A DNA stretch of 64,000 nucleotides, taken from Sphingobium sp. (GTDB lineage: Bacteria; Pseudomonadota; Alphaproteobacteria; Sphingomonadales; Sphingomonadaceae). Shown piece by piece: positions 14,635 to 43,881 of the stretch (position 1 is the stretch's first letter; each line of letters opens with the position of its first letter). The translations under genes and the position numbers were made by a program. Under the pieces are notes generated by a model, which worked only from the letters and a program-made list of their open reading frames with translations, was not told where the DNA came from and searched no databases. Location: NCBI GenBank assembly GCA_020446425.1, contig JAGRES010000013.1:231041-295040 (forward strand), given 5' to 3'.

Positions 14635-14648
14635 ATCACATATTTGAT
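14635..14648. promoter_or_regulatory. Cluster palindrome ATCA-N6-TGAT, copy 1
   Basis: The sequence ATCACATATTTGAT has both half-sites exact. It is 145 bp before the start of the reverse carboxymuconolactone-decarboxylase-like gene. It is a member of the family described at 19288, 25380, 26425, 32982 and 43549. Confidence 0.7.
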
Positions 14649-14824
14649 CGGATCAGTGCCGCCGAACTCTCTTGAGGCGGCCAGCGTTTCATAAAATCGA
14701 CGCGCACGAGCAATCCACAGCGCGATGTCGCCAAAGATCTCAATTCAAGGCCAGTCTGGCATCGCTCAGCTGATGCATTTCAGCAGCTGCGCGAGGTGTC
14801 CGAAATCATCAGCCTCTCAGGAGC

Positions 14825-14838
14825 ATCACATATATGCT
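14825..14838. promoter_or_regulatory. Degenerate cluster palindrome, copy 2
   Basis: ATCACATATATGCT keeps the left half-site and the ATAT core; the right half-site has two changes. It is 165 bp before the amidohydrolase ATG at 15003. A second symmetry, GAGCAT...ATGCTC, overlaps it. Confidence 0.5.
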
Positions 14839-15002
14839 CATTTTGGGGAACTATAGAAGTTTGGGCGACACCTCATTAGCATGGTGCACATAAAAGCCGC
14901 GAGAACTGCGGCGTCAGGCGGCCAGTTGTGCATCCCGTGCTGAATGAAAAGCCGGATCGCTCAATTCAGGCCGAGAACGAATATGATAGGAGATGCAGGT
15001 TC

Positions 15003-16172
15003 ATGAGTACCGCTACAATGAAATCTTCGCGGATGATGGCGCTGGAGAATTTGGATGTTTCGCTGAAGCGCGTCCTGAAGGGCAGTTCCGCGAGCCTGCC
15101 GGAGGGCACCGTCCTCATTTCAAGCGATAGCCACTGGAATATTACCGAGGACATATTCTACGACCGCGCGCCTGCCGATCTAAAAGAGCGCATGCCCCGG
15201 ATCTGGACGGACGAAGAAGGCAGACTGTGTATCGGGATAGAGCACAAGAACCTGTTGGCAGGCCCCATTGAGGAGCTGTTGGCGAGCTTCAACCGCCCGG
15301 GTTTTTATGATCTCGATGCGCGCATGGCCGATCTGGATGATGACGGTGTCGCGATGGAAATCGTCTATCCGCAATGGCTGATGTTCTATTTGCACCACCC
15401 CGATCTCGAAATGCGGGAATGGCTGTTCAGAATTTACAACGAATATCTCGCCGAAATATCGGAAAGGTCGAACGGCAGGTTCCATGGGATGGGCATCCCA
15501 ACCTATTGGGACAGTGCGAAAGCGCCCGCTTCGATAGAGCATATCAAGCGGATCGGTCTCAAAGGGGCCATGCTGCCCGTGAACGCCGGCAACAGCCCCG
15601 CAGGCGTCAAGGTGAACTATGCAACCGACGATATGGACGACATGTGGGCTGCCGCCGAAGATTGCCATCTGCCGATAACCTATCACATTGGCGAGAACCC
15701 TCATCTGGAAGGGCCAGGTGGCGTAGGCGCCGGGTTGCTCGGTACATTCGTCCCGTTCAGACGTACCCTCGGAGACCTGATCTTTGGCGGCATTTTCGAT
15801 CGGCACCCGACACTGAAAGTCGTGTTTGCCGAAGCCGGGATCAACTGGGTGCCCGGCGCGCTTCAGGATGCGGAAATGATCTTGGACAGCTGGGGCAAGT
15901 TTCTTGATCCCAAGATCCAGCATCGTCCGACCGATTACTGGCACAAACATTGTTATGCGACCTTCATGGCGGACGAAGTGGGACTGGATCTGGTCGATTA
16001 TATTGGTCGTGACCGGATCATGTGGGCCACGGATTACCCTCATAATGAGGGCAGCCATGGCTATACCGAGAAAGTCGTTCAGAACATCGTTGATCGGATG
16101 GGCCCTTCGGACGCAAAGAAAATATTGGGACAAACCGCTATCGAAGTGTTCGACTTGCAGCTTCCTTCGTGA
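15003..16172 (+). CDS. Amidohydrolase-2 family protein (ACMSD-like decarboxylase/hydrolase)
   Basis: TIM-barrel metal enzyme, 389 residues, of the family of 2-amino-3-carboxymuconate-semialdehyde decarboxylase and related C-C hydrolases. Likely metal and active-site positions are the early DSH (ISSDSHWN), the His in PITYHIGEN, and the Asp in WATDYPHNEGSH. ATG 15003 follows AGGAGA by 9 bases; a longer frame from 14928 has no ribosome site. It is followed by the molybdopterin enzyme on the same strand. It is only distantly similar to the second amidohydrolase at 31608. Confidence 0.9.
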   Translation: MSTATMKSSRMMALENLDVSLKRVLKGSSASLPEGTVLISSDSHWNITEDIFYDRAPADLKERMPRIWTDEEGRLCIGIEHKNLLAGPIEELLASFNRPGFYDLDARMADLDDDGVAMEIVYPQWLMFYLHHPDLEMREWLFRIYNEYLAEISERSNGRFHGMGIPTYWDSAKAPASIEHIKRIGLKGAMLPVNAGNSPAGVKVNYATDDMDDMWAAAEDCHLPITYHIGENPHLEGPGGVGAGLLGTFVPFRRTLGDLIFGGIFDRHPTLKVVFAEAGINWVPGALQDAEMILDSWGKFLDPKIQHRPTDYWHKHCYATFMADEVGLDLVDYIGRDRIMWATDYPHNEGSHGYTEKVVQNIVDRMGPSDAKKILGQTAIEVFDLQLPS

Positions 16173-16210
16173 GGCTGACCATGCGAGCTCTGGCTAGCCC
16201 ATAAATCGGG

Positions 16211-18358
16211 ATGACCGAGACTGCAGCGACATTTTGCCGCCTGTGCACCGCTTCTTGTCCTACTCTGGTGGAGTTCAGCGACGGGAAGCCGGTTCGTGTT
16301 ACCGGCAATCGGTCCTCTTCGCTTTATGGCGGTTATACATGTGTGAAAGGCCGCGCGCTTCCGAAGATTCACCTTAACCCCGACCGGCTGCTGTTCAGCC
16401 TCAAAAGGGATGATGCCGGGAAACATCACCGCATCGACACGGATCAGGCGATTGCGGAGATTGCCGACAAACTGTCCAGCCTGATCGAAGAGCATGGACC
16501 ACGATCGGTTGCCGTTTATTATGGCAACTCGGTTGTTCCCTATCCGGTATTGTCCTTCGTCGCCGCCATGTTCATGACCGCGATCAAGTCGCCAATGAGC
16601 TTTTCCGCAGCGACGCTGGACCAGCCTGGAATACCGATTTCCAATGCGCTGCACGGCAAATGGCTTGGCGGGCGGACAGCCGCTGCGGATGCCGACGCCG
16701 CCCTGATCATCGGCGGCAATCCGGTCATCTCCAAGCAATATCTGTCGCAGAACCCCGCGCGGCAGCTCAAGGATCGCGTCAACGCAGGCATGAAGCTGAT
16801 TGTGATTGATCCACGCCGAACGGAGACAGCGCGGCGCGCTCATGTTCACCTGCAGGTTCGGCCAGGTGAGGATGCGACGGTCCTTGCAGGCATCATCAAT
16901 CTGCTGATCGCACAGGACGCGGTCGACCAGGCGTTTGTTGCCGAAAATGTCGACGGCCTTGATCAGCTCGCCAAGGCTGTTGAGCCGTTCACACCCGAAT
17001 ATGTGGCTGAGCGGGCCGGGATAAGCGGTGACGATTTGCAGGAAGCCGCCAATGTTCTGGGGCAGGCCCGGCGCGCTTATGTTGCAGGCGGAACCGGCAT
17101 CAGCATGACTGGCCATGGCAATCTGTGTTTCTACCTGCTGCTCTGCCTCCAATCCATTCGTGGCTTCTGGCCGCGCGCTGGCGACACGTTCACTGCGTCG
17201 GCGGTGCTTACGGCGCAAGTCGAACCAAAGGCTCAGCCGCAGTCTCCCTCAAGCGCATTTACTGGCGACGCACTCAGAGTTCGTGACCTCAAGCAATCAA
17301 TAGCGGGCTTTCCCACAAGCGGCCTTCCCGACGAAATCCTGACACCGGGCGAAGGGAGAGTGAGAGCACTGATATGCCTTGGCAATCCGCTGGCGGCATG
17401 GCCGGACTCCGCGCTTGCGCACAAGGCCATGTCCGAGCTTGAGCTGCTGGTTGTCCCCAATGTTGAATATTCAGAGACAGCGCGGGTCGCACATTATGTT
17501 CTGGCAACGAAACAAATATTGGAAACTCCGGCGACGACACAGCTGGTCGAGGTGACCAAGAACGTCCACCATGGCTATGGCTGGGATGTTCCCTATGCAC
17601 ATTATACACCGGCATTGCTTGATCCGCCCGAGGAGTCCGATCTGATCGAGGATTGGCAAATCTTCTACCGGGTCGCGCAATTGATGGGCCGCCCGATGCA
17701 GTTCTTTGGCGCAGATGGATCACCATGCGAGCGCGACGGAGAAGAGCCCACGACGGACGAACTGATCGACCTGCTGTGTCAGGGGTCAGGAGTTCCGATG
17801 GAGGAAGTCCGCTGTCACCCAGACGGAAAGATATTTGCGGAGGCGCAGCAGTCAGTCGCTCCTCGCGATCCGAGTTGCACCGGCCGGCTTAATGTTGCCG
17901 ACGATCTGATGATGGCGGAACTTTCTGAGGTTGCTGCGCAACAGCCGCCCAGCGACGACAAATGCACATACCCGTTCCAGCTCATCACCAGAAGAAACGA
18001 CGGTGTCGTCAACTCGATGTTTCGGCGCATACCCGATATGCACAAAGCAGGCTATAATCCGGCATTCATGGCCCCCAGCGATCTGGAGGAATTGGGGCTG
18101 CAGTCAGGCAGCCTGATATCCATCACGTCGCGTCATGGCAAAGTGACAGCGATCCTTGAAAGCGATGCCACATTGCGGCCGGGCGTGGTGTCGATCAGTC
18201 ACGGTTTTGGGCCCGCCATGGGTGAAGATGACGACCCGCTGGCCGTCGGCACAAACGTCAACAGACTTCTCAGGATGGATGTCGGTCACGACCCGATAAG
18301 CGGCATCCCCCGTATGGGCGCGGTCGCCGTGGCAGTGGAGGCTGCTGCTACCGCTTGA
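16211..18358 (+). CDS. Molybdopterin-dependent oxidoreductase, cytoplasmic single-subunit type
   Basis: A 715-residue protein of the DMSO-reductase superfamily. An N-terminal [4Fe-4S] motif is complete: Cys9, Cys12, Cys16 and Cys44 (C-x2-C-x3-C-x27-C), followed by KGR. The molybdopterin domain shows IIGGNPVISKQ and VIDPRRTETARRAHVHLQVRPGED. A molydopterin dinucleotide-binding C-terminal domain starts near residue 590. There is no Tat signal and no electron-transfer or membrane subunit nearby, so it should act in the cytoplasm. It follows the amidohydrolase by 38 bp and is probably co-transcribed. The reaction could be hydroxylation, hydration or reduction; it cannot be chosen from sequence. 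Confidence 0.9.
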   Translation: MTETAATFCRLCTASCPTLVEFSDGKPVRVTGNRSSSLYGGYTCVKGRALPKIHLNPDRLLFSLKRDDAGKHHRIDTDQAIAEIADKLSSLIEEHGPRSVAVYYGNSVVPYPVLSFVAAMFMTAIKSPMSFSAATLDQPGIPISNALHGKWLGGRTAAADADAALIIGGNPVISKQYLSQNPARQLKDRVNAGMKLIVIDPRRTETARRAHVHLQVRPGEDATVLAGIINLLIAQDAVDQAFVAENVDGLDQLAKAVEPFTPEYVAERAGISGDDLQEAANVLGQARRAYVAGGTGISMTGHGNLCFYLLLCLQSIRGFWPRAGDTFTASAVLTAQVEPKAQPQSPSSAFTGDALRVRDLKQSIAGFPTSGLPDEILTPGEGRVRALICLGNPLAAWPDSALAHKAMSELELLVVPNVEYSETARVAHYVLATKQILETPATTQLVEVTKNVHHGYGWDVPYAHYTPALLDPPEESDLIEDWQIFYRVAQLMGRPMQFFGADGSPCERDGEEPTTDELIDLLCQGSGVPMEEVRCHPDGKIFAEAQQSVAPRDPSCTGRLNVADDLMMAELSEVAAQQPPSDDKCTYPFQLITRRNDGVVNSMFRRIPDMHKAGYNPAFMAPSDLEELGLQSGSLISITSRHGKVTAILESDATLRPGVVSISHGFGPAMGEDDDPLAVGTNVNRLLRMDVGHDPISGIPRMGAVAVAVEAAATA

Positions 18359-18367
18359 CGCCAGGCA

Positions 18368-19147
18368 TCATTTTGGAGCCATGCGAATGGCGCCGTCGAG
18401 CCTGATGCTTTCGCCATTGAGATAGACATTGCGGAGAATTTCAAGCGCGAGCGAGGCATATTCCACAGGGTCGCCAAAACGCTTGGGGAAAGGAACGGAG
18501 GCGGCAAGCGCCTGTTTGATGGTATCGGGTGCGCCCGCCATTAGCGGCGTGTCGAAGATCCCGGGCAATATCGTGTTCACCCGGATTCCTTCGTTCATAA
18601 GGTCGCGCGCTATGGGCAGCGTCATTCCGACAATGGCTGCTTTTGAGGCTGAATAACCCGCCTGCCCTATCTGTCCGTCTGTTGCCGCGACACTGGCGGT
18701 ATTGACGATCGCGCCGCGTTCACCTGTTTCAAGCGGGTCGAGAGACAACATTCCAGCTGCGGATTTGCTGATGCACCGGAAGGTGCCCAGGACGTTCACC
18801 TGAATGATGCGGTCGAAGAGGTCGAGAGGATAACTCCTCACCTCGCCGGTCTCGCGATTGCGGGAGGCAGTTTTCACCGACTTCCCGATGCCTGCGCAGT
18901 TTACGAGGATGCGCTCCTGCCCGTGCGCGGCACGTGCACTGGCAAACCCGGCGTCGACCGAAGCATCGTCAGTAACATCGACCTGGCAATAGGTGCCGCC
19001 AATTTCATGAGCAAGCACCTCCCCGGCCTCCTGATTGATGTCGAATAGCGCAACCTTGGCGCCCGCCTGATTGAGCGCGCGCGCTGTCGCAGCGCCGAGC
19101 CCGCTTGCTCCTCCAGTGACGATGGCAGACAGTCCGTTGAGTTCCAT
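18368..19147 (-). CDS. SDR, type II 3-hydroxyacyl-CoA dehydrogenase (HSD10)-like
   Basis: Short-chain dehydrogenase of 259 residues with TGGASGLG, NCAG, the NTASVAA serine region and YSASK. The internal stretch with the RNRETGEVRSYPLDLFDRII insert and the ending with NGESIRLDGAIRMAPK are typical of HSD10-like 3-hydroxyacyl-CoA dehydrogenases. It could supply the NAD-dependent step of beta-oxidation missing from the FadB-like protein at 39676. It is convergent with the molybdopterin gene and divergent from the acyl-CoA dehydrogenase operon; palindrome copy 3 is 141 bp before its ATG. Confidence 0.9.
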   Translation of the reverse strand: MELNGLSAIVTGGASGLGAATARALNQAGAKVALFDINQEAGEVLAHEIGGTYCQVDVTDDASVDAGFASARAAHGQERILVNCAGIGKSVKTASRNRETGEVRSYPLDLFDRIIQVNVLGTFRCISKSAAGMLSLDPLETGERGAIVNTASVAATDGQIGQAGYSASKAAIVGMTLPIARDLMNEGIRVNTILPGIFDTPLMAGAPDTIKQALAASVPFPKRFGDPVEYASLALEILRNVYLNGESIRLDGAIRMAPK

Positions 19148-19287: not shown

Positions 19288-19301
19288 ATCACATGCGTGA
19301 T
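19288..19301. promoter_or_regulatory. Cluster palindrome ATCA-N6-TGAT, copy 3
   Basis: ATCACATGCGTGAT is a near-perfect palindrome (ATCAC-N4-GTGAT) 141 bp upstream of the reverse SDR start. Confidence 0.75.
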
Positions 19302-19427: not shown

Positions 19428-19441
19428 ATCATATATGTAAT
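19428..19441. promoter_or_regulatory. Near-match cluster palindrome, copy 4
   Basis: ATCATATATGTAAT differs from the consensus by one base in the right half-site. It is 156 bp upstream of the acyl-CoA dehydrogenase ATG at 19597. Confidence 0.55.
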
Positions 19442-19596: not shown

Positions 19597-20715
19597 ATGA
19601 ATTTTGCATTTTCCGAAGATCAGGAGAGTCTGCGCGATCAGGTCCGGCGTTTTTTCGCTGACCGGTGTCCGCCAGAGGCTGTCCGGAGAATTTTCGAAGG
19701 CGAGGACGCTTTCGACCGGTCGCTCTACGGCGAAATGGCGGGCATGGGTTTGCTGGGCGCGGCCATTCCCGAAGACTATGGCGGCAGCGGCATGGGGCCG
19801 CTGGAACTCTGCGTCATTGCCGAGGAAGCCGGACGCGTACTCGCACCTGTACCGCTGCTCTCATCCATCTATCTTGCCGCCGAGCTTTTGATGAATGCCG
19901 GAACAGATGCGCAAAAGAGCAGCTGGCTAGCACGCTTGGCAAGCGGTGAGGCCATTGCCACTTTCGCGCATGCGGAGCGGGCCGGGCCGGTGATAGCGAA
20001 TACTATCAGCGCGTCCATCAGCGATGGAAAGCTGAACGGTGCCAAGGTACCGGTCGCGCATGGCGCGACGGCCAATATGGCGATTGTATCGGCGCGGGAG
20101 GGCGAGCAGGTGTCGCTGTGGCTGGTCGATCTTCATGACCCGACGGTGAAGCGCGAAACGCTTGCAAATCTGGACCCCACTGCGCCGCAGGCACGGTTGC
20201 ATTTTGAGAATACACCCGCCGAGCCGCTGCCAAACTCAGGGTGGATGACCATTAAACACGCGCTTGATCGCGCAGCAGTGTTGCTCGCCTTTGAACAGAT
20301 TGGCGGTGCGGACAGGGCGCTCGAAAGTGCGCGGGATTATGCGCTGGAGCGCATGGCATTCGGCCGGCAGATCGGTTCGTTCCAGGCGATAAAGCATATG
20401 CTCGCGGACATGTATGTTGCTGCGACGCTTGCGCGGTCGAACAGCTATTATGGCGCTTGGGCTCTTTCCACCGGTGCAGAGGAACTGCCCGCTGCCGCAG
20501 CGACTGCGCGGGTGTCTGCCACGGAGGCTTTTCTGCTGTGTGCCAAGAATAATATTCAGGCGCATGGCGGCATGGGGTTCACCTGGGAAGCCGAAAACCA
20601 TCTTTATTATCGCCGCGCAAATGCGCTCGCGCTGGCCCTTGGTTCGCAATCGGTGTGGGAGGATCGCCTGATCGCGAACCTTCGTGACAGCGACCGCGCG
20701 AAATCGGCTGCTTGA
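19597..20715 (+). CDS. Acyl-CoA dehydrogenase family protein, FadE beta-type subunit
   Basis: A 372-residue flavoprotein-type subunit. The N-terminal helical domain and PEDYGGSGMGPLELCVIAEEAGR are typical. The C-terminal helix reads QAHGGMGFTWEAENHLYYRRANALALALGS and lacks the E-G-T/E-G-G segment that carries the catalytic Glu of ordinary acyl-CoA dehydrogenases. Such subunits form alpha2beta2 enzymes with a neighbour in actinobacterial steroid degradation. It is first of three acyl-CoA dehydrogenase genes and lies 10 bp before the next, which suggests a heteromeric complex. Confidence 0.88.
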   Translation: MNFAFSEDQESLRDQVRRFFADRCPPEAVRRIFEGEDAFDRSLYGEMAGMGLLGAAIPEDYGGSGMGPLELCVIAEEAGRVLAPVPLLSSIYLAAELLMNAGTDAQKSSWLARLASGEAIATFAHAERAGPVIANTISASISDGKLNGAKVPVAHGATANMAIVSAREGEQVSLWLVDLHDPTVKRETLANLDPTAPQARLHFENTPAEPLPNSGWMTIKHALDRAAVLLAFEQIGGADRALESARDYALERMAFGRQIGSFQAIKHMLADMYVAATLARSNSYYGAWALSTGAEELPAAAATARVSATEAFLLCAKNNIQAHGGMGFTWEAENHLYYRRANALALALGSQSVWEDRLIANLRDSDRAKSAA

Positions 20716-20725
20716 GGACTGTCAG

Positions 20726-21961
20726 ATGGATTTCAATGACACCGCAGAAGAAGCCGAATTCCGGGCCAAAGTAAGAAGCTGGATCCATGCGAATGCTCCC
20801 AAGGATCTGGAGCCGGAACTCAGCAGAGCCGCCTTCGGAACGAGCGGCATTGTCAGTCAGGATCCGCTAACGGCGTCAAAGGCGTGGCAGCGGAAAAAGG
20901 CAGATGCGGGTTATGCCTGCCCACGCTGGCCGACGGAATATGGCGGCGCTGGCTTCTCCCCGATTGAAAGCGTGATCTGGAGCCAGGAAGAGGGGCCGTT
21001 TGCTGCGCTGTCGGCACAATTCACCGTGGGTCACGGAATGTGCGGCCCAACGATGATGGAATGGGCGAGCGAAGATCAAAAGCACCGCTATCTGCCGCCT
21101 CTCGCGGCCGGAGAGGAAATATGGTGTCAGCTGTTCTCTGAACCTGCTGCCGGGTCCGATCTCGCCGGCATACGCACACGCGCGCAAAAGGACGGCGACG
21201 ACTGGATCGTCAACGGGCAGAAAATATGGACCAGTGCCGCGCATCTGGCGAGTTTCGGGCTATTGCTTACCCGGACTGACCCTGATGTCCCCAAGCACAA
21301 GGGTTTGACCATGTTCTTCCTGGACATGCATTCCCCCGGCGTAGAAGTGCGGCCGATCAAACAGGCAAATGGCCGGTCCGGTTTCAACGAGGTGTATTTC
21401 ACCGACGTGCGCATTCCCGACGCCCAGCGTCTGGGTGCTCCTGGCGCCGGATGGCAGGTTTCGCTCACCACGCTGATGAACGAACGCCTCTCGCTCGGTT
21501 CCGCCATTTCGACCGGATTTCCGGCATTGCTCGATTATTGCAGGCACCTGGAACTGAACGGCAAACCGGCAGTGGACGATCCCATGGTGCGATCCCGGCT
21601 CGCGAAACTGGCGATAAAGGAAAGCGGGCTCAAATATACCGCTTTCAGGGCGATCACAGCCTTGTCGAAAGGTGAGGCCCCCGGCCCGGAAAACTCGATC
21701 GGTAAGCTGGTGGCAGGCCTTACGATGCAGGAGCTCGCCATGTTCGCGCTCGATCTGCAGGGGCAGGCAGGCGTGCTGGGCGAAGAGGCTGACGGCTATT
21801 TCCAGACCCTGCTGATGCGCGCGCCCGCCATCCGGATAGAGGGCGGGACGGATGAAATCTTGCGCACAATCATTGGAGAGCGCGTTCTGGGCTTACCGCC
21901 GGACCTGCGCGCCGATCGGGGTATCCCGTTCCGCGACATACCGACAAGGGGCCGCGACTGA
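20726..21961 (+). CDS. Acyl-CoA dehydrogenase, FadE alpha-type subunit
   Basis: A 411-residue acyl-CoA dehydrogenase. It starts at the ATG after GAGGA; the longer frame from 20684 would overlap the upstream gene. It shows WPTEYGGAGF, the FAD-binding SEPAAGSDLAG, WTSAAH, and a C-terminal RIEGGTDEILRTIIGERVLGLP that retains the Glu. Together with the 19597 protein, which lacks this Glu, it forms the arrangement expected for a heterotetrameric enzyme acting on a bulky cyclic acyl-CoA. The substrate is inferred only in general terms. Confidence 0.9.
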   Translation: MDFNDTAEEAEFRAKVRSWIHANAPKDLEPELSRAAFGTSGIVSQDPLTASKAWQRKKADAGYACPRWPTEYGGAGFSPIESVIWSQEEGPFAALSAQFTVGHGMCGPTMMEWASEDQKHRYLPPLAAGEEIWCQLFSEPAAGSDLAGIRTRAQKDGDDWIVNGQKIWTSAAHLASFGLLLTRTDPDVPKHKGLTMFFLDMHSPGVEVRPIKQANGRSGFNEVYFTDVRIPDAQRLGAPGAGWQVSLTTLMNERLSLGSAISTGFPALLDYCRHLELNGKPAVDDPMVRSRLAKLAIKESGLKYTAFRAITALSKGEAPGPENSIGKLVAGLTMQELAMFALDLQGQAGVLGEEADGYFQTLLMRAPAIRIEGGTDEILRTIIGERVLGLPPDLRADRGIPFRDIPTRGRD

Positions 21962-21995
21962 CCGTGCCAAAGGGTGAGAGAAGATAGGAACGTCC

Positions 21996-23159
21996 ATGAA
22001 TTTTGATCTGACCGATGAACAGGAGAGCCTGAAAGAGGCCGCCAGGCGTTTCGCCAGCGAGCAGCTGCCGGAGCTTGCGGTCGAACTGGAAAAAACGTCG
22101 GACCCGGTGCCGGACGAATGGCTGAAGCGCTATGCAGACCTGGGTTTTCTCGGCGTCAATATCGGCGCGCAATATGGCGGTCTTGGCTTGGGACCACTGG
22201 AAGCGCTGATTGTGATGGAAGAGTTTGCAAAGGTTTCCGGCGCTGTCGCGTTTCCCGTGTTTGAATCATGTACGGGGCCTGTGAAGGTGATCGAACGCTA
22301 TGGTTCCGATGCGCTTAAACAGCGCGTCATTCCGCGCGTTTGCGCCGGCGAGATGATCATTGCGATCTCGATGTCCGAAGCGGACGCGGGAACTGCGCTC
22401 ACCGACCTCAAGACAGTCGGCAAAATCAATGGCGACACTATTATTCTGAATGGCGCAAAGCGGTGGTGTTCCGGCGGCGGTCATGCCGACGGATATCTGG
22501 TATATTGCAGGCTGGACGATACACCGGGCGCCAAGGGTATCGGTGCCGTCTATGTGGACAAGGATACACCGGGATTGTCGTTCGGCGCGCGCGAGCAGCT
22601 GATGGGCTTTCGCGGTGTAGCATCGGCAGACATCTATCTCGATAATGTTGAAGTGCCCGTCGACCAGATCGTCGTTCCCGCCGGCGGCTTCCCGAAACTT
22701 ATGGCGGCATTCGGACTGGAGCGTTGCGGCAACGCCATCATGTCGCTGGCACAGGCGGCAGGAGCATTGGAAGATGTAACCGCCTATGTGCAGGAGCGTC
22801 AGCAGTTCGGACGGCCGATAGTCGAATTCCAGGCGGTCCAGCTGCGCCTTGCAGAGATGAAAATGAAGGTCGAGGCCGGACGCCTGTTGATCTACCGAGC
22901 GGCATGTAATGCTGGATCGGAAAATCCCAGCATTCTGGATTCATCGTTGGCCAAATGCTTTGCCAACGAGGTTTCACGCGAAGTGACCGGGTCTGCGATT
23001 CAGCTGATGGGCGGATATGGCTATTCCAAGGAAAATGCGATGGAGCGCCGGTTCCGCGATTCATGGGGCTGGGGTATCGCCGGCGGCGCAATTGATATTC
23101 AGAAAGTGAATATCGCGTCCGCCATGGTTGGCCGCCGTTTCAACCAGCGTGCATCCTGA
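21996..23159 (+). CDS. Acyl-CoA dehydrogenase family protein
   Basis: A 387-residue member with SMSEADAGTALTDL at the flavin loop and FGRPIVEFQAVQLRLAEM in the C-terminal domain. The C-terminal catalytic region reads RDSWGWGIAGGAIDIQKVNIA, with Ala where the usual Glu-containing E-G-T segment is expected, so its catalytic base is either elsewhere or supplied by a partner. It is the third gene of the triplet, 34 bp after the previous one, and followed by an acyl-CoA ligase. Confidence 0.88.
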   Translation: MNFDLTDEQESLKEAARRFASEQLPELAVELEKTSDPVPDEWLKRYADLGFLGVNIGAQYGGLGLGPLEALIVMEEFAKVSGAVAFPVFESCTGPVKVIERYGSDALKQRVIPRVCAGEMIIAISMSEADAGTALTDLKTVGKINGDTIILNGAKRWCSGGGHADGYLVYCRLDDTPGAKGIGAVYVDKDTPGLSFGAREQLMGFRGVASADIYLDNVEVPVDQIVVPAGGFPKLMAAFGLERCGNAIMSLAQAAGALEDVTAYVQERQQFGRPIVEFQAVQLRLAEMKMKVEAGRLLIYRAACNAGSENPSILDSSLAKCFANEVSREVTGSAIQLMGGYGYSKENAMERRFRDSWGWGIAGGAIDIQKVNIASAMVGRRFNQRAS

Positions 23160-23226
23160 TGCACCGCCCGCCAGTTGAATGAACGGCCTCTTGTCGTTTG
23201 CAGCGAAATGATCGGATCTATTTGAT

Positions 23227-24762
23227 ATGCATCCCGCGAACCATGTTCAAACTGCGCCCGATCGCCCTGCCCTGATCATGGCAGGTAGTGGCGAGACCAT
23301 TACCTACAGCCAGCTTGAGCACCGCTCGAACCAGGGCGCGCATCTTTTCCGGTCCATCGGCCTGAAAACGGGGGATGTCGTTGCCATATTGATGGAAAAT
23401 AACCCCCGCTTTCTCGAAATCGCGTGGGCCGCCCAGCGTGCAGGCCTGTATTTCACATGCATCTCGACCAAGCTGACGGCTGTTGAAGTCGAATATATTT
23501 TGAACGACTGCGCTGCTCAGGCGCTCATCACCTCTCCCAACATGCAAATCGCGGATGAGCTTGCGGGCCTGATGGAGGGTCTACTGCTGTATATGGTGGA
23601 TGAGGCACATGCTTCGTTTCGCAGCTATGAGCAGGAAATCAGCCAGTTTCCGGTCACTCCGATAGCGGATCAGGCACCCGGAGCAGATATGCTCTACACG
23701 TCCGGTACCACCGGCAGGCCAAAGGGCGTTAAGCTGGAGTCCACCGCAACCGCCTTTGACGACGAAGTCCGTATGGAAGTGGTGTGCCGTGCACTTTTCG
23801 GCTTCCGCGAAGGAACCGTCTATCTATGCCCTGCTCCGCTATATCACTCGGCACCGCTCCGTTTTGCGATGACGGTGCAGCGTCTGGGCGGGACCGTTAT
23901 ATTAATGGAGAAATTCGATCCGGAAGCCGCGCTGGCGCTTATCGAAAAATACCGGATAGACTCTGCCCAGTTCGTTCCCACACACTTCATCCGCATGCTC
24001 AAGCTGCCGGCGGAAATCCGGGAGCACTATGATGTCTCTTCGCTCCAATCGGTCATTCACGCATCGGCTCCCTGTCCGGTACCGGTGAAAGAGCAGATGA
24101 TTGCCTGGTGGGGCCCTGTCATCCACGAATTTTATTCGGGTACCGAACCGGTAGGCATGTGTCACATCACCTCAGCGGAATGGCTGGCGCACAAGGGGTC
24201 AGTGGGCAAGGCGGTGAGAGGCACATTGCACATCTGCGATGATGACGGGAACCCCCTGCCCCCAAGAGCCGAAGGCCTCGTCTATTTTGAGGGCGGAACC
24301 GAAGTTTCCTACCATAACGACACGGAAAAAACGAAAGAGATACGCAACCAGCACGGCTGGTCCACCCTGGGAGATGTGGGTTGGGTCGATGAGGATGGCT
24401 ATCTGTATCTGACCGACCGCAAGAGCTTCATGATCATTTCAGGCGGCGTCAACATCTATCCTCAGGAGATCGAGAATCTGCTGATCGGCCATCCCAAGAT
24501 TGCCGACGTTGCAGTCGTGGGCGCGCCCCATCCGGAAATGGGCGAACAGGTGGTTGCCGTCGTTCAGCCCATGCCCGGTATCACGCCTGATGCCGGGCTG
24601 GCGGCAGAGATTACAGAATTTGCGCGGGATCATCTCAGCCATGTAAAGGCCCCGCGGCGCGTTGACTTCATGGAAGAGCTGCCGCGGCATCCGACCGGCA
24701 AGTTGTACAAGCGGCTGATCAGAGACGCCTATTGGGGCAAGACCGACACCAGCATCGTGTAA
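23227..24762 (+). CDS. Acyl-CoA synthetase (AMP-dependent ligase)
   Basis: An adenylate-forming enzyme of 511 residues. The P-loop-like motif is YTSGTTGRPKGV, the A5 motif is FYSGTEPVG, A7 is STLGDVGWVDEDGYLYLTDR and the C-terminal catalytic Lys region reads PRHPTGKLYKRLIR. It converts a carboxylic acid to its CoA thioester with ATP, presumably feeding the acyl-CoA dehydrogenases in the same operon. The ATG at 23227 has a weak ribosome site, so the start is not certain. It resembles FadD17/FadD3-type ligases of steroid degraders in general layout; specificity is unknown. Confidence 0.92.
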   Translation: MHPANHVQTAPDRPALIMAGSGETITYSQLEHRSNQGAHLFRSIGLKTGDVVAILMENNPRFLEIAWAAQRAGLYFTCISTKLTAVEVEYILNDCAAQALITSPNMQIADELAGLMEGLLLYMVDEAHASFRSYEQEISQFPVTPIADQAPGADMLYTSGTTGRPKGVKLESTATAFDDEVRMEVVCRALFGFREGTVYLCPAPLYHSAPLRFAMTVQRLGGTVILMEKFDPEAALALIEKYRIDSAQFVPTHFIRMLKLPAEIREHYDVSSLQSVIHASAPCPVPVKEQMIAWWGPVIHEFYSGTEPVGMCHITSAEWLAHKGSVGKAVRGTLHICDDDGNPLPPRAEGLVYFEGGTEVSYHNDTEKTKEIRNQHGWSTLGDVGWVDEDGYLYLTDRKSFMIISGGVNIYPQEIENLLIGHPKIADVAVVGAPHPEMGEQVVAVVQPMPGITPDAGLAAEITEFARDHLSHVKAPRRVDFMEELPRHPTGKLYKRLIRDAYWGKTDTSIV

Positions 24763-24794: not shown

Positions 24795-25268
24795 TCAGCT
24801 TCTGGGGTGTCCGCCGATCAAAACGACGAACACGCTCGCCGGAACATCACCGCGATTATACCAGCAGTGGGATGTGCCGTTCTGCACGAAAATATCTCCC
24901 GTGTTGAATTGCAGCACTTCCCCCGTATCCAGTTCCATATGCACCGTCCCTGCGGTCACGATGCCAATATCGACTGTGTCGCTGCGATGCATGCCCGGCG
25001 CCTCGCCTGTGACGGCACCATCACGTTCAGCCGCCAGGACGGTTTGTGAGGGAAGGATGTGCATGAAGGTTGCCCGGTAACCGTTGGGCCCTGGAAAGAG
25101 ATCGCCGAAAGCTGGCGGAGTGCCGTCATTGGGAAAGCTGGGGGCTTCGTCGCTGCCCCAGATATGCGCGAACAGAAACCCGCCGCCAAGCGCCTGAAGC
25201 TCGATTTCGCTGCTTGCGGCATGAGAGCGGCCATTCGCGCTTTCACCTGTCACAAAGCATTTTGCCAT
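24795..25268 (-). CDS. Cupin-domain protein
   Basis: A 157-residue single cupin. The two motifs are visible: HRSDTVDIGIVTAGTVHMELDTGEV with the His/Asp side, and GDIFVQNGTSHCWYNRG with the second His. GAGGAGAAG precedes the ATG. It is convergent with the acyl-CoA ligase gene and divergent from the SDR at 25473, with palindrome copy 5 between them. Cupins of this size may be dioxygenases, isomerases or sensors; no function is assigned. Confidence 0.85.
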   Translation of the reverse strand: MAKCFVTGESANGRSHAASSEIELQALGGGFLFAHIWGSDEAPSFPNDGTPPAFGDLFPGPNGYRATFMHILPSQTVLAAERDGAVTGEAPGMHRSDTVDIGIVTAGTVHMELDTGEVLQFNTGDIFVQNGTSHCWYNRGDVPASVFVVLIGGHPRS

Positions 25269-28830: not shown

Positions 28831-28835
28831 TCAAT

Positions 28836-33042: not shown

Positions 33043-33762
33043 TTATTGGCCGGGAGCAAGTTCCGCCCAAGTGATAAGGGCAGCATCTATTTCGTCTCGT
33101 GCGTTCTGGCGGCATGCGCCAGCGACCATTGTCAGTACGCCTTTAATGATGATCGGTCCGAAATCGGCGCCTTCAACACGGCCAAGTGCCCAGTCCAAAC
33201 CCAAGGCATAGCGATAACGAACCAGATCTTCGATCAGTATCTGGGGGTCTACCCATGGTTGTAATTGGCCATCGCGATACAGGCGTTCGACCCACGGCCG
33301 ATGCGAGTGGGCCGCGATTTCAAAAATCGTACGCCGAACGTCATCGTCCGCATCCGGGGAAAAGAATGCCGCCAGCAAAGCGCGTGTATAACTGCGGACT
33401 TCCAGATTACGGCGGATCACAACATCCAGATGTTCGATCATACGCGCAGGCGAGGCTGGCTCCGTCCGGTAACGTATCTTTTTCTCGAAATCTTCGAAAT
33501 ATTTGTAGATCGCTGCTGCAATCAGAAGATCGCGGTTCCTGAATATATTGTACAAGGTACGCTTCGCCACCTGGGCCTGTTCGGCGACCTCATCCATGCT
33601 GATGTCATGTATATCTTTTTCGGCGATCAATTGTCTGGCCGCCGCCAATATACGGTGCCGCCGCTCGATAATGGACGGACTGGAATAGCCCCCTCTGCGA
33701 CCGGAACGTGGAGCGTCTGTTTTCTCGTCAGCCTGCAATGTGGTTTTCTGTCCTACTGCCAC
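33043..33762 (-). CDS. TetR/AcrR-family transcriptional regulator
   Basis: A 239-residue regulator beginning at GTG. The helix-turn-helix spans roughly residues 38-85 (RRHRILAAARQLIAEKDIHDISMDEVAEQAQVAKRTLYNIF split over two helices). It follows the acyl-CoA dehydrogenase pair by 7 bp and is probably co-transcribed with it. It is inside the region marked by the ATCA-N6-TGAT palindromes and is one of two candidate proteins for binding them, the other being the IclR protein at 42523. Confidence 0.9.
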   Translation of the reverse strand: MAVGQKTTLQADEKTDAPRSGRRGGYSSPSIIERRHRILAAARQLIAEKDIHDISMDEVAEQAQVAKRTLYNIFRNRDLLIAAAIYKYFEDFEKKIRYRTEPASPARMIEHLDVVIRRNLEVRSYTRALLAAFFSPDADDDVRRTIFEIAAHSHRPWVERLYRDGQLQPWVDPQILIEDLVRYRYALGLDWALGRVEGADFGPIIIKGVLTMVAGACRQNARDEIDAALITWAELAPGQ

Positions 33763-36200: not shown

Positions 36201-36213
36201 TGCACGATGTGCA
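36201..36213. promoter_or_regulatory. Palindrome TGCAC-GAT-GTGCA in a divergent promoter
   Basis: A perfect 5-bp-arm palindrome flanked by AAAT and ATTT lies between the divergent acyl-CoA dehydrogenase (start 36107) and crotonase (start 36305) genes. It differs from the cluster palindrome and may bind another regulator, such as the TetR protein two genes downstream. Confidence 0.4.
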
Positions 36214-36304
36214 ATTTTAGTTGCGTTTTAATCGCTGTGCTGCAAGAGTATGGAAAAGCTGCAGCACTTTCGCGCTGCGCGAAAACACGCTTTTGGGAGA
36301 CAGT

Positions 36305-38422: not shown

Positions 38423-39676
38423 TCAAACCCGTTCGATTATGATCGCAGGAGCCATGCCACCCGCCGCGCACATGGTGATGAGCGCGTAGCGCCCGCCGGT
38501 TCGCTCCAGCTCGTCGAGCGCCGTTCCGATCAGGATTGATCCTGTCGCGCCGATCGGGTGACCGAGCGCAATGGAACCGCCATTTACGTTCACTTTTGAG
38601 CGGTCGAGCTGCAAGTCCCGCACGCATTTCTCGACAACGACGGCAAATGCCTCATTGATTTCCCAGAGGTCGATATCCTCGATACCAAGTCCGGCCTTCG
38701 CCAAAACCTTGCGGATCGCGGGGACAGGCGCATTGAGCATCAATGTGGGATCATCGCCGACATTGGCGGTCGCGACGACCCGCGCGCGCGGCGTCAGGCC
38801 ATGTTCCGCCGCATATTGCCGGGAAGCAAGCAGCAGGCCCGCCGCCCCGTCAACCACCCCGGATGACGACCCGGCATGATGCACCGGCTCAATCGTGAGG
38901 CCGGGATGTTTCCGGCGGATCATGTCGCCGAAGCTTGGCCCATCCTTGTCGGGCGACATATCGGCGATTTGCGCAAAGGCGGGCTTCAGCGCGGCCAGGC
39001 CTTCGGCTGTTGTGTCAGGGCGCGGATATTCGTCCTTCGCCAGCACGACTTGCCCCGTATCGTCGATAACAGGGACGATGCTGCGGTCGAAACGCCCTTC
39101 GGCAATCGCGGCGGCCGCGCGTTTCTGGCTTTCCAGCCCCAGCGCGTCCAGCGCTTCGCGCCCGATCCCTTCCAGCGAAGCAATGGCATCGGCGCACACG
39201 CCCTGCTGGGGTTGCGGATATTTCGCAGCAAGACGGGCATTATGAGCCCCCATGCGCATGGGCGTGAGCCCCGCGGCGATATCTTCCTGCATCATGGTCG
39301 CGGTCAGCGACATCATTTCCGTGCCGCCAGCGATGAGCAGGTCTTCCATACCGGACATGATTTGCGCCGCGGCGAGGCTGACCGAAGTTATGCCGCCACC
39401 GCAAAAGCGATCCAGCGTGGTTCCGCTGGCCTTGATATCATATCCCGCATCGAGCGCCGCCATGCGTCCGAGATCTCCGCCTTGCTTGCCGCGCTGCATG
39501 CTAGTTGACCAGATAATGTCGTCGATTTCGCCTGTATTCAGAGCGTTTCTCTCAGCAAGCGCTGCAAGAACGGTCGCGGCCAGATGCTGAGGATGGAGGT
39601 GCGCCAAGGCGCCCTTGCCGACCTTACCTATGCCCCTGGGCGTACGCACGGCGTCGATGATATAGGCGTCTGCCAT
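38423..39676 (-). CDS. Thiolase (acetyl-CoA acyltransferase)
   Basis: A 417-residue thiolase with nucleophile Cys in LDRFCGGGITS, the NEAF His/Asn region (WEINEAFAVVVE), GHPIGATGS and a C-terminal TMCAAGGMAP with the second Cys. It cleaves 3-oxoacyl-CoA to a shortened acyl-CoA plus acetyl-CoA or, if another acyl unit is released, propionyl-CoA. Its ATG overlaps the stop of the upstream FadB-like gene by one base, so the two are translationally coupled. It is longer than and unlike the PcaF-like thiolase at 51502. Confidence 0.93.
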   Translation of the reverse strand: MADAYIIDAVRTPRGIGKVGKGALAHLHPQHLAATVLAALAERNALNTGEIDDIIWSTSMQRGKQGGDLGRMAALDAGYDIKASGTTLDRFCGGGITSVSLAAAQIMSGMEDLLIAGGTEMMSLTATMMQEDIAAGLTPMRMGAHNARLAAKYPQPQQGVCADAIASLEGIGREALDALGLESQKRAAAAIAEGRFDRSIVPVIDDTGQVVLAKDEYPRPDTTAEGLAALKPAFAQIADMSPDKDGPSFGDMIRRKHPGLTIEPVHHAGSSSGVVDGAAGLLLASRQYAAEHGLTPRARVVATANVGDDPTLMLNAPVPAIRKVLAKAGLGIEDIDLWEINEAFAVVVEKCVRDLQLDRSKVNVNGGSIALGHPIGATGSILIGTALDELERTGGRYALITMCAAGGMAPAIIIERV

Positions 39677-40971
39677 CAGTTCACCTCACTTTGATCAAAT
39701 TGCGCCCGCGCGCGATCAGGCTCCGCCGCTTTCTTCGGCGCTCCGGCCCTGTCCGCCCAGAACATCGGGCCGCCCTTGTAAACCGGCCAATGGCAGCAAT
39801 GGATCGCCGCAACATCAATGTCCGATGCGTGCGGGACGATGCCCTGCTCAAGCATTCGCGCTCCCTCCTTCGCTACGGAAAAGAGCAGGCTTGTCAGAAG
39901 AGACTCGTCGGCTTTCGCCGTTGCGCCCGAAGCAGGGGCGTTGCCGGGATTGACGCCGATCGTCTGAAGATAGTCTGGAGGAAAGCCATAGTCGTAGAGA
40001 ACATCATCAATTTGGCGCGGGGATGTGCCGCCTGAAATCGCGGCTTCGGCCTGATCGGCCAAGGCTTTCCTCATGCGGTCGGCGACAATATCTTCGCTGG
40101 CATCGCTGTTCGCGAACGATTTATCCGCTTTGCGCTTCGCGAAGAAATAATATCGCTGCGCATCTGATTCCGGCGACTCGCGCAGTTCCCCGAACAGCGC
40201 TCGCTCACGTGCGATACCGTCGTCGAATGGCAAGCTGACTGCCGCCTCAATCGCCCGGATAATATGCTCAGGCGCCTTGAATCCGCGCATCGCAGATGCA
40301 TTTGCCCTGCGGAATTCATCGAACAGTTTTGGATCGAAAGATCCAGGCGCGATTTTATCGCCTCGGTCCCTTACGCGGTATAATGGGAGATTTTGCGCGA
40401 CGACGCTGCGCGCATATTCGACAGCCATCCGGTGAAGCTGGCCTTCGTCCGCCAGTGCGTCGATCATTCCCAGTTCCAACGCCTTGGGCGCGGGCACCGG
40501 GTCACCATTGACGATCAGTTCAAGCGCGATCTTGGGACCAACCAGGCGCGGCAACCGCTGGGTTCCACCCGCTCCCGGAAGCAGGCCCAGTTTGACCTCG
40601 GGCAGGCCAACCTTCGCGGAAGGTACAGCGATGCGATAATGGCAGTTGAGCGCGAGTTCGTAGCCGCCGCCAAGCGCGGTTCCATGAATCGCGGCGATTA
40701 CCGGTTTCGGACAATTCTCAATATGCTCGAGAACTTCCGGCAGGTTCGGACTCTGCGGAGGTTTCCCGAATTCCGAGATATCGGCCCCCGCGAAAAAGGT
40801 CCGTCCAGCGCATTGGATTACTATAGCGCTGACAGTATCGTCTTGTGTCAGTTGAGTAATTCCGGAAACAAGAGCGCGCCGGACAGCGGTTCCCAAGGCG
40901 TTCACAGGCGGCGAGTCTATCGTCAACACGCCAACTGCATCCTCAATTGCAATCCTGCTTATGTCATCCAT
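39676..40971 (-). CDS. FadB-like protein lacking the NAD-binding domain (hydratase plus C-terminal remnant)
   Basis: A 431-residue protein. Residues 1-280 match the enoyl-CoA hydratase half and linker of the complete FadB-like enzyme at 52735, with both catalytic Glu (GGGYELAL and GLPEVKLGL) and the same [13 protein letters not shown]. After [11 protein letters not shown] the Rossmann domain (GxGxxG region, about 170 residues) is missing. The sequence resumes in the 3-hydroxyacyl-CoA-dehydrogenase C-terminal part: [12 protein letters not shown]...[12 protein letters not shown], then [25 protein letters not shown]. It should therefore hydrate but not dehydrogenate. It is coupled to the downstream thiolase. 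Confidence 0.9.
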
Positions 40972-41227
40972 CGGGCTGCGTCCTGCCTTGTTCTGTCACC
41001 TGGTGCGGTCCAAGCTTTGATACTGTTGGCCGAACTATACTGGCACCGCGCGCATTTCCGACGGTCAGGCCGAAACATTCAGATATGTGATGAATCCCGC
41101 TGGCACTTGTGCGCGCTCGGCAAGCGTGCGCATGCTAGCAATACTTTGAGAGGATCGTGCATCATAAGTGATCGTATCAAGGGAACAAGCAACCCTGGGG
41201 CAATCAACCAATAGATGACAAGTTTCC
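40972..41227. other. Divergent promoter region, FadB-like / CoA-transferase
   Basis: 256 bp without a gene, holding palindrome copy 8 at 41078 and a variant with a 4-base spacer (ATCA-TAAG-TGAT) at 41161-41172. Confidence 0.6.
41078..41091. promoter_or_regulatory. Near-match cluster palindrome, copy 8
   Basis: TTCAGATATGTGAT differs from the consensus by one half-site base. It is 107 bp before the FadB-like start at 40971 and 137 bp before the CoA-transferase start at 41228. Confidence 0.55.
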
Positions 41228-42478
41228 GTGAACAAGAAGCCTATCGAACAACACTCTATTGCTGACGGTCAAAATGCCGCGACGATGGCGCATGCGTTGC
41301 AGGGCACGCGCATTCTTGACCTCACCAGCGTCATCATGGGCCCGTACGGCACTCAGATTCTCGCGGATCATGGCGCAGACGTCATTTTCGTCGAACATCC
41401 GAAAAGCACAGGCACTCGTGAATTGGGTGCACAGGATTTTGCCGAGCTGTCCGGCATCTCGTTAAACCTCCTGAGAAACAAGCGTAGCCTCAGCATTGAT
41501 CTCAAAAAGCCCGAAGGGCGTAGCGCGCTTTTGCATGTTGCGGCCAGCTGCGATGCCGTCGTCACCAATCTTCGCCCCACGCCCTTGAAAAGACTGGGCC
41601 TTACCGGCGACGACTTTCTCGCGGCAAATCCTGAGATCATATTTTGCCAGGCAATAGGGTTTCCAGGCGATAGCGAACGCGCCGACGACCCAGCCTATGA
41701 TGACATCATCCAGTCGGAATGTGGGCTGGCCGATGCCTATCAGCGCGTTACAGGGCTGCCCCAGCTATGCCCGACAATTCTTGCAGACAAGGTGTGCGGT
41801 CTTGTTATCGCCAATTCCATCATGACAGCGCTTCTCCACAAGCAGAAGACGGGACAGGGGCAGAAAATCGAAATCCCGATGATTGATGTGATGAAGGCGT
41901 TCATGATGGTCGAGCATGGGGCCAACGGAGTCACTGACCCTGATGCTGGCGATGCGGGCTATATGCGCATATTGAATAGCGAACGCGGGCCACAAAAAAC
42001 CAGCGATGGCTGGATCATGATACTCCCATATGGGCCGGAAGCCTATGACGCGATCTTCCAGGCGGGCGGACGTAACGACCTGGTGGGGGATCCGCGCACC
42101 CGCGGCCGGGGTCTCATGACCAACGCCGAATATCTTTACGCACAGTTGAGACCGATCATCGCCACGCGCACTACCGCAGAATGGCTTACTTTCTGCCGCC
42201 AGAACAAGATCCCTGTGGGGGCTGTGGAAGGGCTGAACGATATAGTGAGAGATTATCCGGTTGCCGATCACCCGGTGGTTGGATCCTATCGCCTGGTGCC
42301 GCCGCCCGTGCGCTTCTCGGTCACGCCGGCACAAATCAGGCAACCTGCGCCGATGCCGGGTGAGCATACCGAAGAGCTTCTTCTGGAGGCAGGATTGGAC
42401 GAACCGAGCTTGGCGTCTATGGAAAAGCGGGGTATTATCCGCCGAAGGCCGGCCAAGGAACCCGTTGCGGGTCTATAA
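41228..42478 (+). CDS. CaiB/BaiF (family III) CoA-transferase
   Basis: A 416-residue CoA-transferase. The N-terminal GTRILDLTSVIMGPYGTQILADHGADVIFVEHP and KPEGRSALLHVAASCDAVVTNLRP are family hallmarks; the catalytic Asp is expected in PTILADKVCGL. It would move CoA between acids such as succinate and a pathway acid. The listed start is GTG with poor ribosome-binding context; an ATG at 41285 (MAHALQG) would match the N-terminus of the AMACR-like protein at 46692. The IclR regulator follows after 44 bp. Confidence 0.9.
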   Translation: MNKKPIEQHSIADGQNAATMAHALQGTRILDLTSVIMGPYGTQILADHGADVIFVEHPKSTGTRELGAQDFAELSGISLNLLRNKRSLSIDLKKPEGRSALLHVAASCDAVVTNLRPTPLKRLGLTGDDFLAANPEIIFCQAIGFPGDSERADDPAYDDIIQSECGLADAYQRVTGLPQLCPTILADKVCGLVIANSIMTALLHKQKTGQGQKIEIPMIDVMKAFMMVEHGANGVTDPDAGDAGYMRILNSERGPQKTSDGWIMILPYGPEAYDAIFQAGGRNDLVGDPRTRGRGLMTNAEYLYAQLRPIIATRTTAEWLTFCRQNKIPVGAVEGLNDIVRDYPVADHPVVGSYRLVPPPVRFSVTPAQIRQPAPMPGEHTEELLLEAGLDEPSLASMEKRGIIRRRPAKEPVAGL

Positions 42479-42522
42479 ATATAACGGACGTCCAAAGCGA
42501 TTGAGAGGAAGCATGTGTTTCC

Positions 42523-43383
42523 ATGGCGAAAGCGCATAAAGACCTTGCCAATGCACTAGCGGCAGACAGGATTGCCGGTGAACAAGCGCTGCTGCCCGAC
42601 GGAGTAATCAAATCGGCCGGGCGGGCACTGCAGGTTCTGGAACTGTTCGACCTGTTGCAGCGGGAATCGACCGTAGTTGAAATTGCCGACCTGCTTAAGC
42701 TTCCGCAGTCCAGCACGTCGATGCTTTTACGCAGCCTGGTCCGGATGGGCTATCTGCACCATGATCCTCATGCCCGCACATTCATCCCGACTATGTCGGT
42801 GGCCTTGCTGGGTAACTGGATCGACAGAAATGTCGTTGGCGACGGAGACCTTTTGCTGTTGATGAAGCGGCTTAACAGGGAGACCGGCCAGGCGGTCGTT
42901 CTGGCCTCGAGGACCGGGCTTTTCGCGCGCTACATTCACGTTATTCAGGCGACGGCTGCGGCGCGGCTATATATTGTACAAGGATCCCTGCGGTCACTTG
43001 TCCGCTCTGGCGTCGGCTATGTTCTGCTCTCTCAGATGGGGGACATGATGGCGCGCAGGCTGGCTTTGCGCATCAATGCCGAAGCGAAGGACGACGCGGA
43101 AAAGGTCGACATCCCGACCCTTCTCGAAAATCTGCAGACGGTCAGGGAACAGGGATACGCACTGACCACGAATCTCGTGACACTCGGCGGGGGCGTAATA
43201 GCGATGCAGCTGCCCGGCCCCCGTGACGGGGACTGCTCGCTGGTTATCGCTCTTGCGGGCATTACGGAAGTGCTGCGCACCCATGAGGCTGATTTTGTGG
43301 CAGCGATGCGCAATGAAATCAGTAACTACGGAAAATCTGTGGCGAGGAACCGCCCCATAAAGCCCTCCTCCGATCGGGAGTAA
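42523..43383 (+). CDS. IclR-family transcriptional regulator
   Basis: A 286-residue regulator. The winged helix covers about residues 28-90 (IKSAGRALQVLELFDLLQ, VVEIADLLKLPQSSTSMLLRSL) and is followed by the IclR effector domain (GQAVVLASRTG...GVGYVLLSQM...GYALTTN). IclR proteins typically control aromatic and acid catabolism in response to a pathway metabolite. It lies in the centre of the palindrome-marked region, downstream of the CoA-transferase, and is a candidate master regulator. Confidence 0.92.
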   Translation: MAKAHKDLANALAADRIAGEQALLPDGVIKSAGRALQVLELFDLLQRESTVVEIADLLKLPQSSTSMLLRSLVRMGYLHHDPHARTFIPTMSVALLGNWIDRNVVGDGDLLLLMKRLNRETGQAVVLASRTGLFARYIHVIQATAAARLYIVQGSLRSLVRSGVGYVLLSQMGDMMARRLALRINAEAKDDAEKVDIPTLLENLQTVREQGYALTTNLVTLGGGVIAMQLPGPRDGDCSLVIALAGITEVLRTHEADFVAAMRNEISNYGKSVARNRPIKPSSDRE

Positions 43384-43881
43384 CCAGCTCCGTCGTGATT
43401 GGCACGCTCCCGGACAATATCCTCTGACGGTGACTCTCTGAACATTGTTGTCGTGCTTCGCGAGCAGAATGGACTGTTCTCAATGGCGCCGTCCAGCAAC
43501 GCGCATGATGTGCCCTTCATTAGGGTCAGCTCAACACTCTGCCACTTCATCATATATCTGATTAATGGCTCAATACCTGCCGAAATCACGAGCATTACAT
43601 TGCCCCGCAACTGGCGAGCTTGTACCGTTTTGGAAGTGAAGATCGACATCAGATACGAAACAAAGGAGAGGTTATCGACGTGGCAACCGGGTGGTGGCCT
43701 CGTCATACGGTGGACGGCCTTCAAGATCGCTGCCAGCGGTTAGCCTCCATATTCCGCAATGCTCGAATGATAAGATTTTCGATGTCTTCAGGGCGCACTG
43801 CCTCAACTCGAAGTACATCAGTTCGATGTGGTTCCAATAGTTTCTGTTGGTGCATGCTCAAGTTTCGACGGAGTGTTTTCG
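43384..43881. other. Long leader region before the monooxygenase gene
   Basis: About 500 bp without a convincing gene. It contains palindrome copy 9 and, at 43680-43889, a 69-codon open frame starting with GTG behind GGAGAGG. Its Ser/Arg/Cys-rich product is not recognisable and overlaps the monooxygenase start. Confidence 0.5.
43549..43562. promoter_or_regulatory. Cluster palindrome ATCA-N6-TGAT, copy 9
   Basis: ATCATATATCTGAT has exact half-sites. It is 320 bp before the monooxygenase ATG, farther than the other copies. Confidence 0.72.

Follow-up and report, generated by a model that had tools for sequence, protein, structure and literature searches.

A palindromic word repeated through a degradation gene block of a Sphingobium genome and its probable IclR-family regulator

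We analysed a 64,000-nucleotide stretch of Sphingobium sp. (contig JAGRES010000013.1, positions 231,041 to 295,040; hereafter the window), in which a palindrome of the form ATCA-N6-TGAT recurs between the genes of an uncharacterised degradation block at 14-44 kb. The nine intergenic sites described below are real and far above chance, and comparisons of sequences indicate that they are most probably bound by the IclR-family protein encoded in the block at 42523-43383. The explanation of the palindrome as a predicted IclR operator, taken as a whole with repression by IclR and a TetR-family protein as second switch, is in our judgement likely. The sites, their enrichment, their conservation and their association with IclR genes were all computed and are presented first.

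Palindromic sites in the block

Six exact copies and three near matches were found at the coordinates reported in an earlier note on this DNA, and all nine are intergenic by the gene lists used here. They are given below (no strand is assigned), together with their state in G201, a genome of another genus with a homologous block.

14635..14648, predicted operator site ATCACATATTTGAT: exact; before CMD-like/SDR (leftward); no counterpart compared in G201
14825..14838, predicted operator site ATCACATATATGCT: near match; before amidohydrolase 1/molybdopterin oxidoreductase (rightward); aligned in G201
19288..19301, predicted operator site ATCACATGCGTGAT: exact; before SDR2 (leftward); aligned in G201
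19428..19441, predicted operator site ATCATATATGTAAT: near match; before acyl-CoA dehydrogenases 1-3 and the AMP-ligase; no aligned G201 counterpart
25380..25393, predicted operator site ATCATATATATGAT: exact; in the gap between cupin (leftward) and SDR3 (rightward); aligned in G201
26425..26438, predicted operator site ATCACACATCTGAT: exact; before TonB receptor/GMC oxidoreductase; the G201 TonB homologue has an unaligned site
32982..32995, predicted operator site ATCATATGCGTGAT: exact; before amidohydrolase 2 and the HIBDH-like gene (leftward); no counterpart compared in G201
41078..41091, predicted operator site TTCAGATATGTGAT: near match; in the gap between FadB-like/thiolase (leftward) and CoA-transferase-IclR (rightward); aligned in G201
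43549..43562, predicted operator site ATCATATATCTGAT: exact; before the Baeyer-Villiger gene (BVMO), enoyl-CoA hydratase 2 (ECH2) and CoA-transferase 2; identical site in G201

The window holds 12 copies of ATCA-N6-TGAT against 1.68 expected, and the maximum in 100 shuffles was 7. The chance rate had earlier been put at about one per 65 kb; the corrected value, about 1.7 per window, leaves the conclusion unaffected. The six exact sites listed are half of the 12 copies. The others (723, 16895, 19225, 31303, 58942 and 60965) are coding in five cases and intergenic in one (19225); none shows the YAYRYN spacer on inspection.

For scoring we used a matrix of 14 columns built from 14 sites, six from G201 and eight upstream of other IclR genes, with none from the window. 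With it the nine sites rank first in the window at 19.2-24.9, all of them intergenic, and the next match (13.4) is coding. This test is not wholly independent, because the 14 training sites were chosen by means of a first matrix derived from sites of the window and of G201; one G201 site is moreover the same as window site 43549. Across the 26 gaps of at least 60 bp (48 genes, 6218 bp of gap), nine matches scored at least 19, whereas 300 dinucleotide shuffles gave 0.01 on average. Such gaps hold a site in 7 of 10 cases within the block, against 0 of 16 elsewhere in the window. The block gaps that have no ATCA site are 23160-23226 and 28831-28993, each with same-strand genes on both sides, and 36150-36220, which holds the TGCAA box described below.

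Association with IclR genes

42523..43383, + strand: IclR-family regulator, proposed binder of all nine sites (HTH_IclR and IclR_C domains; upstream test)

The protein matches HTH_IclR (PF09339, 47.3 bits, cut-off 22) and IclR_C (PF01614, 45.6 bits, cut-off 24). Its candidacy comes mainly from the regions upstream of its homologues elsewhere, of which 66 were collected and 59 non-redundant ones kept after near copies were dropped, the window and G201 being excluded and eight further homologue places left out. A score of at least 14 was reached by 10 of these 59 regions, where shuffling gave 0.47 on average and at most 2 in 60 rounds, and a score of at least 20 by 4 of them, against 0.02. None of the 23 regions upstream of TetR homologues reached 14 (0.12 expected), which disfavours the TetR protein of the block (33043) as the factor for the ATCA palindrome. 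The earlier note had proposed that one regulator, either the IclR or the TetR protein, controls all the units; the single local regulon is strongly supported and the IclR choice is favoured by these counts, while the TetR choice is not. Control of all units was slightly too wide a claim, as the gap between enoyl-CoA hydratase 1 (ECH1) and the acyl-CoA dehydrogenase-TetR genes (36150-36220) has no ATCA site.

On a tree of 63 IclR proteins, labelled by a score of at least 13 (the window IclR was labelled by hand, its site heading its unit), the site label needs 8 changes against 11.2 with shuffled labels, and 6 of 500 shuffles were as low. On a plasmid of Variovorax sp. SRS16, whose IclR is 51% identical, the top site in 30.8 kb is ATCACATATGTGCA (17.4, the next being 10.2), and it lies in the divergent gap between an acyl-CoA dehydrogenase and an enoyl-CoA hydratase gene. 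A search of genome contigs with the IclR protein gave 16 pattern matches, none of which was confirmed.

Conservation in another genus and the TGCAA box

G201 carries an IclR orthologue (75%) and a TetR orthologue (64%) within a homologous but rearranged block. Between the window and G201, ATCA sites are aligned at five of seven promoter pairs (BVMO, cupin/SDR3, SDR2/acyl-CoA dehydrogenase, CoA-transferase 1 and amidohydrolase 1), and at the BVMO promoter the identical site sits within a 17-base identical run. At the TonB promoter both genomes have an ATCA site, out of register. The ECH1 promoter has none in this pair and instead shares an element around TGCAA-N6-TTGCA. Sites 14635, 19428 and 32982 have no counterpart among the seven comparisons.

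33043..33762, - strand: TetR-family regulator, proposed binder of TGCAA-N6-TTGCA (TetR_N 46.4 bits)
36210..36225, no strand assigned: candidate TetR box TGCAATTTTAGTTGCG at the ECH1 / acyl-CoA dehydrogenase-TetR divergent promoter; conserved in G201

The TGCAA box thus sits at the only divergent promoter of the block that lacks an ATCA site, and is kept before ECH1 in G201. Allowing at most one mismatch, it occurs within 400 bp of the gene at 4 of 23 TetR loci compared with 2 of 63 IclR loci; the four TetR-locus boxes have AT-rich cores and lie 83-122 bp beyond the 3' end of the aligned gene. In G133, the homologues of ECH1 and acyl-CoA dehydrogenase have the box only with two mismatches. The sequence comparisons suggest that TetR 33043 may own the box; this box is less well supported than the ATCA site. 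A literature search combining TetR, Sphingomonas, acyl-CoA dehydrogenase and TGCAA returned no paper.

The two regulator genes have different places in the two genomes. In the window, the IclR gene lies in a predicted ATCA-controlled unit and the TetR gene beside the TGCAA box; in G201 the two are the other way round, with the TetR gene in a predicted ATCA-controlled unit and the IclR gene next to the TGCAA box. The boxes, for their part, have remained with the genes they would control. A tentative interpretation, which we consider possible rather than probable, is that the block is run by two local regulators, each with a fixed operator, whose genes changed places while the wiring of operators to targets was conserved between genera. 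With the genes so swapped, the two switches may cross-regulate. The same arrangement can be read with the roles inverted, TetR 33043 binding the ATCA palindrome and IclR the TGCAA box: the positions of the genes in G201 are the reverse of those in the window, two IclR loci do have a nearby TGCAA box, and an inverted-repeat census of 25 TetR upstreams found no word common to more than two, so that this census does not support TGCAA as a TetR autoregulatory site. We regard this inversion as unlikely, given the upstream counts above (0 of 23 for TetR, 10 of 59 for IclR) and the boxes at four TetR loci.

The words might also be look-alike AT-rich parts of core promoters, that is -10 boxes, with no specific regulator. 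TATAAT-like hexamers do occur within or abutting the sites at several promoters. Against this, both ends of the palindrome are kept in the G201 alignments although the gaps have otherwise diverged, the 16 gaps outside the block hold no site, and IclR genes have the word upstream more often than expected; we therefore consider this explanation highly improbable.

Distribution of the word and points that weigh against an IclR operator

The earlier note had proposed a genome-wide count. In the 2.73 Mb of the genome (36 contigs), ATCAYAYRYNTGAT occurs exactly at 7 places, 6 of them in the window; the seventh (C31:28894) is inside a methyltransferase open reading frame (ORF). With at most one mismatch there are 50 places by hand count, 9 in the window, which is 2.3% of the genome, and 41 elsewhere. 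We fetched 38 of these 41 (C33:118011, C33:183061 and C33:236298 were left out), and the coding state of most was judged by open frames and codon scores alone. By the first matrix, only C25:49155 (21.5) among the 38 reaches the weakest window site (19.9); by eye, it is an ORF start between rimM- and trmD-like ORFs, and C10:94300 is inside a hydrolase-like ORF.

Several results weigh against the IclR operator and are gathered here. (i) The exact pattern is present in 114 of 298 genomes of the family, that is in 113 besides this one. In terms of strand matches, this genome has eight and most genomes have none to two, G131 has as many as ten and G187 eight; a backward control gave three over the 298 rows. 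(ii) An IclR homologue above 60 bits was found in 1 (L056) of 13 stretches around exact sites elsewhere, which were L056-L066 and two of G203, picked without regard to IclR; in other genomes, then, the word has a further role or is there by chance. The palindrome is thus not tied to the window IclR alone. (iii) In the upstream test, the word is below threshold in 49 of 59 IclR regions, the matrix was built from sites of the window and G201, and the ten positives have 28-50% identity, three of them (L053-L055) sharing one genus. (iv) In G201, which has the closest orthologue, the gap before the IclR gene holds the TGCAA box and no good ATCA site (best 8.6); nor is there one directly upstream of the Variovorax IclR (1.4). 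(v) The loci of Tistrella (46% IclR) and Pontibrevibacter (41%) have no strong site, the best in the whole locus being 10.8 and 8.8, respectively. (vi) Over whole loci, the density of ATCA-N6-TGAT (0.55 per 10 kb for IclR, 0.41 for TetR) is uninformative.

Two genomes with the word were considered separately. G203 has three exact window-type palindromes (C45:376512, C45:383978 and C3:186186) and no IclR match at 1e-20, and the stretches fetched around its palindromes have no homologues of the window genes; another regulator may use the word there. In G131 the exact pattern occurs at several places, mostly as ATCATACGCTTGAT, and the only match to window genes in stretch L066 is a weak FadB-like one; these copies are possibly another motif or coding repeats.

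The binder could also be a regulator from outside the block, a global factor, or one of two further regulators of the window, both near three Rieske oxygenase genes:

3315-3986: TetR2, TetR domain by Pfam
11203-12114: LysR, LysR domain by Pfam

Such a binder would agree with the Pfam regulator domains of these two proteins and with the occurrence of the word elsewhere in the family, frequently in stretches that hold no IclR homologue. A global factor is opposed by the clustering of 6 of the 7 exact genomic places within the block. LysR and TetR2 are disfavoured as the ATCA factor, as tblastn at E 1e-5 found no counterpart of either in the 80 kb around the G201 block, where the sites are kept. 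The LysR box is T-N11-A; by inspection the palindrome gives T-N10-A and so does not fit it. Overall we find a binder of this kind decidedly unlikely, and the IclR protein of the block remains our preferred candidate. Two opposite-strand ORFs, at 3291 and 11165, match no Pfam family and are likely to be spurious.

Predicted target units and mechanism

The units that the nine sites would control are as follows.

13086..14490, - strand: CMD-like and SDR1, predicted target
14928..18358, + strand: amidohydrolase 1 and molybdopterin oxidoreductase, predicted target
18368..19147, - strand: SDR2, predicted target
19597..24762, + strand: three acyl-CoA dehydrogenases and AMP-binding ligase, predicted target
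24795..25268, - strand: cupin, predicted target
25473..26255, + strand: SDR3, predicted target
26533..30652, + strand: TonB-dependent receptor and GMC oxidoreductase, predicted target
30658..32912, - strand: HIBDH-like and amidohydrolase 2, predicted target
38423..40971, - strand: thiolase and FadB-like enoyl-CoA hydratase, predicted target
41228..43383, + strand: CoA-transferase 1 and IclR itself, predicted target
43828..47831, + strand: BVMO, enoyl-CoA hydratase 2 and CoA-transferase 2, predicted target

Binding, the sign of control, the effector, the unit borders and the TetR box are predictions made from the DNA. We propose that an IclR dimer would bind each site, one ATCA/TGAT half-site per subunit, with the consensus ATCAYATATRTGAT. 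The nine sites in seven gaps would place about 11 units of this CoA-dependent catabolic block under one local switch, among them those of the TonB receptor and of CoA-transferase-IclR itself. Most likely IclR would act as a repressor, its site being on or beside the -10 region, and a pathway acid or acyl-CoA would release the repression. This effector is a guess from the gene content of the block (acyl-CoA dehydrogenases, ligase, CoA-transferases, hydratases, thiolase, BVMO and two amidohydrolases). TetR 33043 would be a second local switch, with its own TGCAA-N6-TTGCA box at the ECH1 / acyl-CoA dehydrogenase-TetR promoter.

As regards the sign, the best promoter candidate before the TonB receptor has a perfect TATAAT whose first base is the last of the site, and this overlap weakly suggests repression by occlusion, one promoter leaving the sign unsettled. 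A TATACT likewise starts at the last base of the CMD site, but it belongs to the third-ranked promoter candidate. Overlap at other promoters says little, since the proposed operator is similar to a -10 box and overlap is partly built in, a further point to be set against the IclR explanation. An activator or long leaders had been suggested earlier from a spacing of 137-165 bp in seven of nine sites. That spacing was not reproduced: when ORF starts are assigned mechanically, the distance is within 130-165 bp for only 4 of 11 site-gene pairs (144, 140, 155 and 136 bp) and the remaining distances are 69, 79, 89, 94, 106, 111 and 265 bp. The TonB promoter fits a repressor better.

Other observations in the window

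Stretch L052 (G152:C542), a whole contig of 7915 bp from a genome placed under another genus and 67% complete, is letter-identical to window positions 24392-32306, which is either recent transfer or a binning error. Positions 47832-48742 form a 911-bp gap with no recognisable gene, its two ORFs of 125 amino acids having no Pfam match.

Comparison with known IclR systems

According to a survey of 1340 IclR proteins, their binding motifs fall into two types, group 1 being GKTYCRYW3-4RYGRAMC, the proteins bind as dimers or tetramers, and both repressors and activators are known (Suvorova and Gelfand 2021, PMC8222616). The palindrome resembles group 1 in its inner core YCRYW4RYGR, its even spacing, its dimer-type symmetry and its link with catabolic genes (PMC8222616). 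Compared with this core, the nine sites have no mismatch of 12 in one case, one in five and two in three; the window contains four exact core matches, only one of which is a site, and the core alone does not discriminate. The outer GKT...AMC boxes are absent as far as the core-adjacent base tells: this base, the sole outer one compared, fits at 1 of 18 positions. On the left of the core 8 of the 9 sites have A at this base, and on the right all 9 have T, whereas the four group 1 subgroups listed in the survey all have T and A, respectively (PMC8222616). This suggests a peripheral variant of the group 1 operator, with A/T rather than T/A beside the core, and the A/T variant occurs near alphaproteobacterial IclRs and at one betaproteobacterial locus. 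Nine sites over 29 kb also exceed the 'own expression and one or two adjacent operons' that the survey gives as general (PMC8222616). No paper mentioning the core CACATATGTG together with IclR was returned by a full-text search of open papers.

Two known systems are close enough for comparison. PheR of Sphingobium sp. SHPJ-2 is described as an IclR-family repressor of a catabolic operon whose deletion also raises the expression of TonB-dependent receptors (PMC13273656). It resembles the present case as a sphingomonad IclR-family protein acting in catabolism with an influence on TonB receptors, and differs in its operator, the essential element being GCAACG in one 44-bp footprint, and in its phenanthrene pathway (PMC13273656). 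PcaR, PcaU and PobR are likewise IclR-family proteins with palindromic operators, TTTGTTCGATWATCGMACAMA being the example given for PcaU (PMC8222616). The window IclR matches their family TIGR02431 at 53.6 bits, far below the curated cut-off of 284.75.

Significance

This analysis provides a probable regulator and a predicted operator, with exact coordinates, for an uncharacterised degradation block, and thereby defines genes that may act together. The matrix is usable for finding relatives of the pathway.

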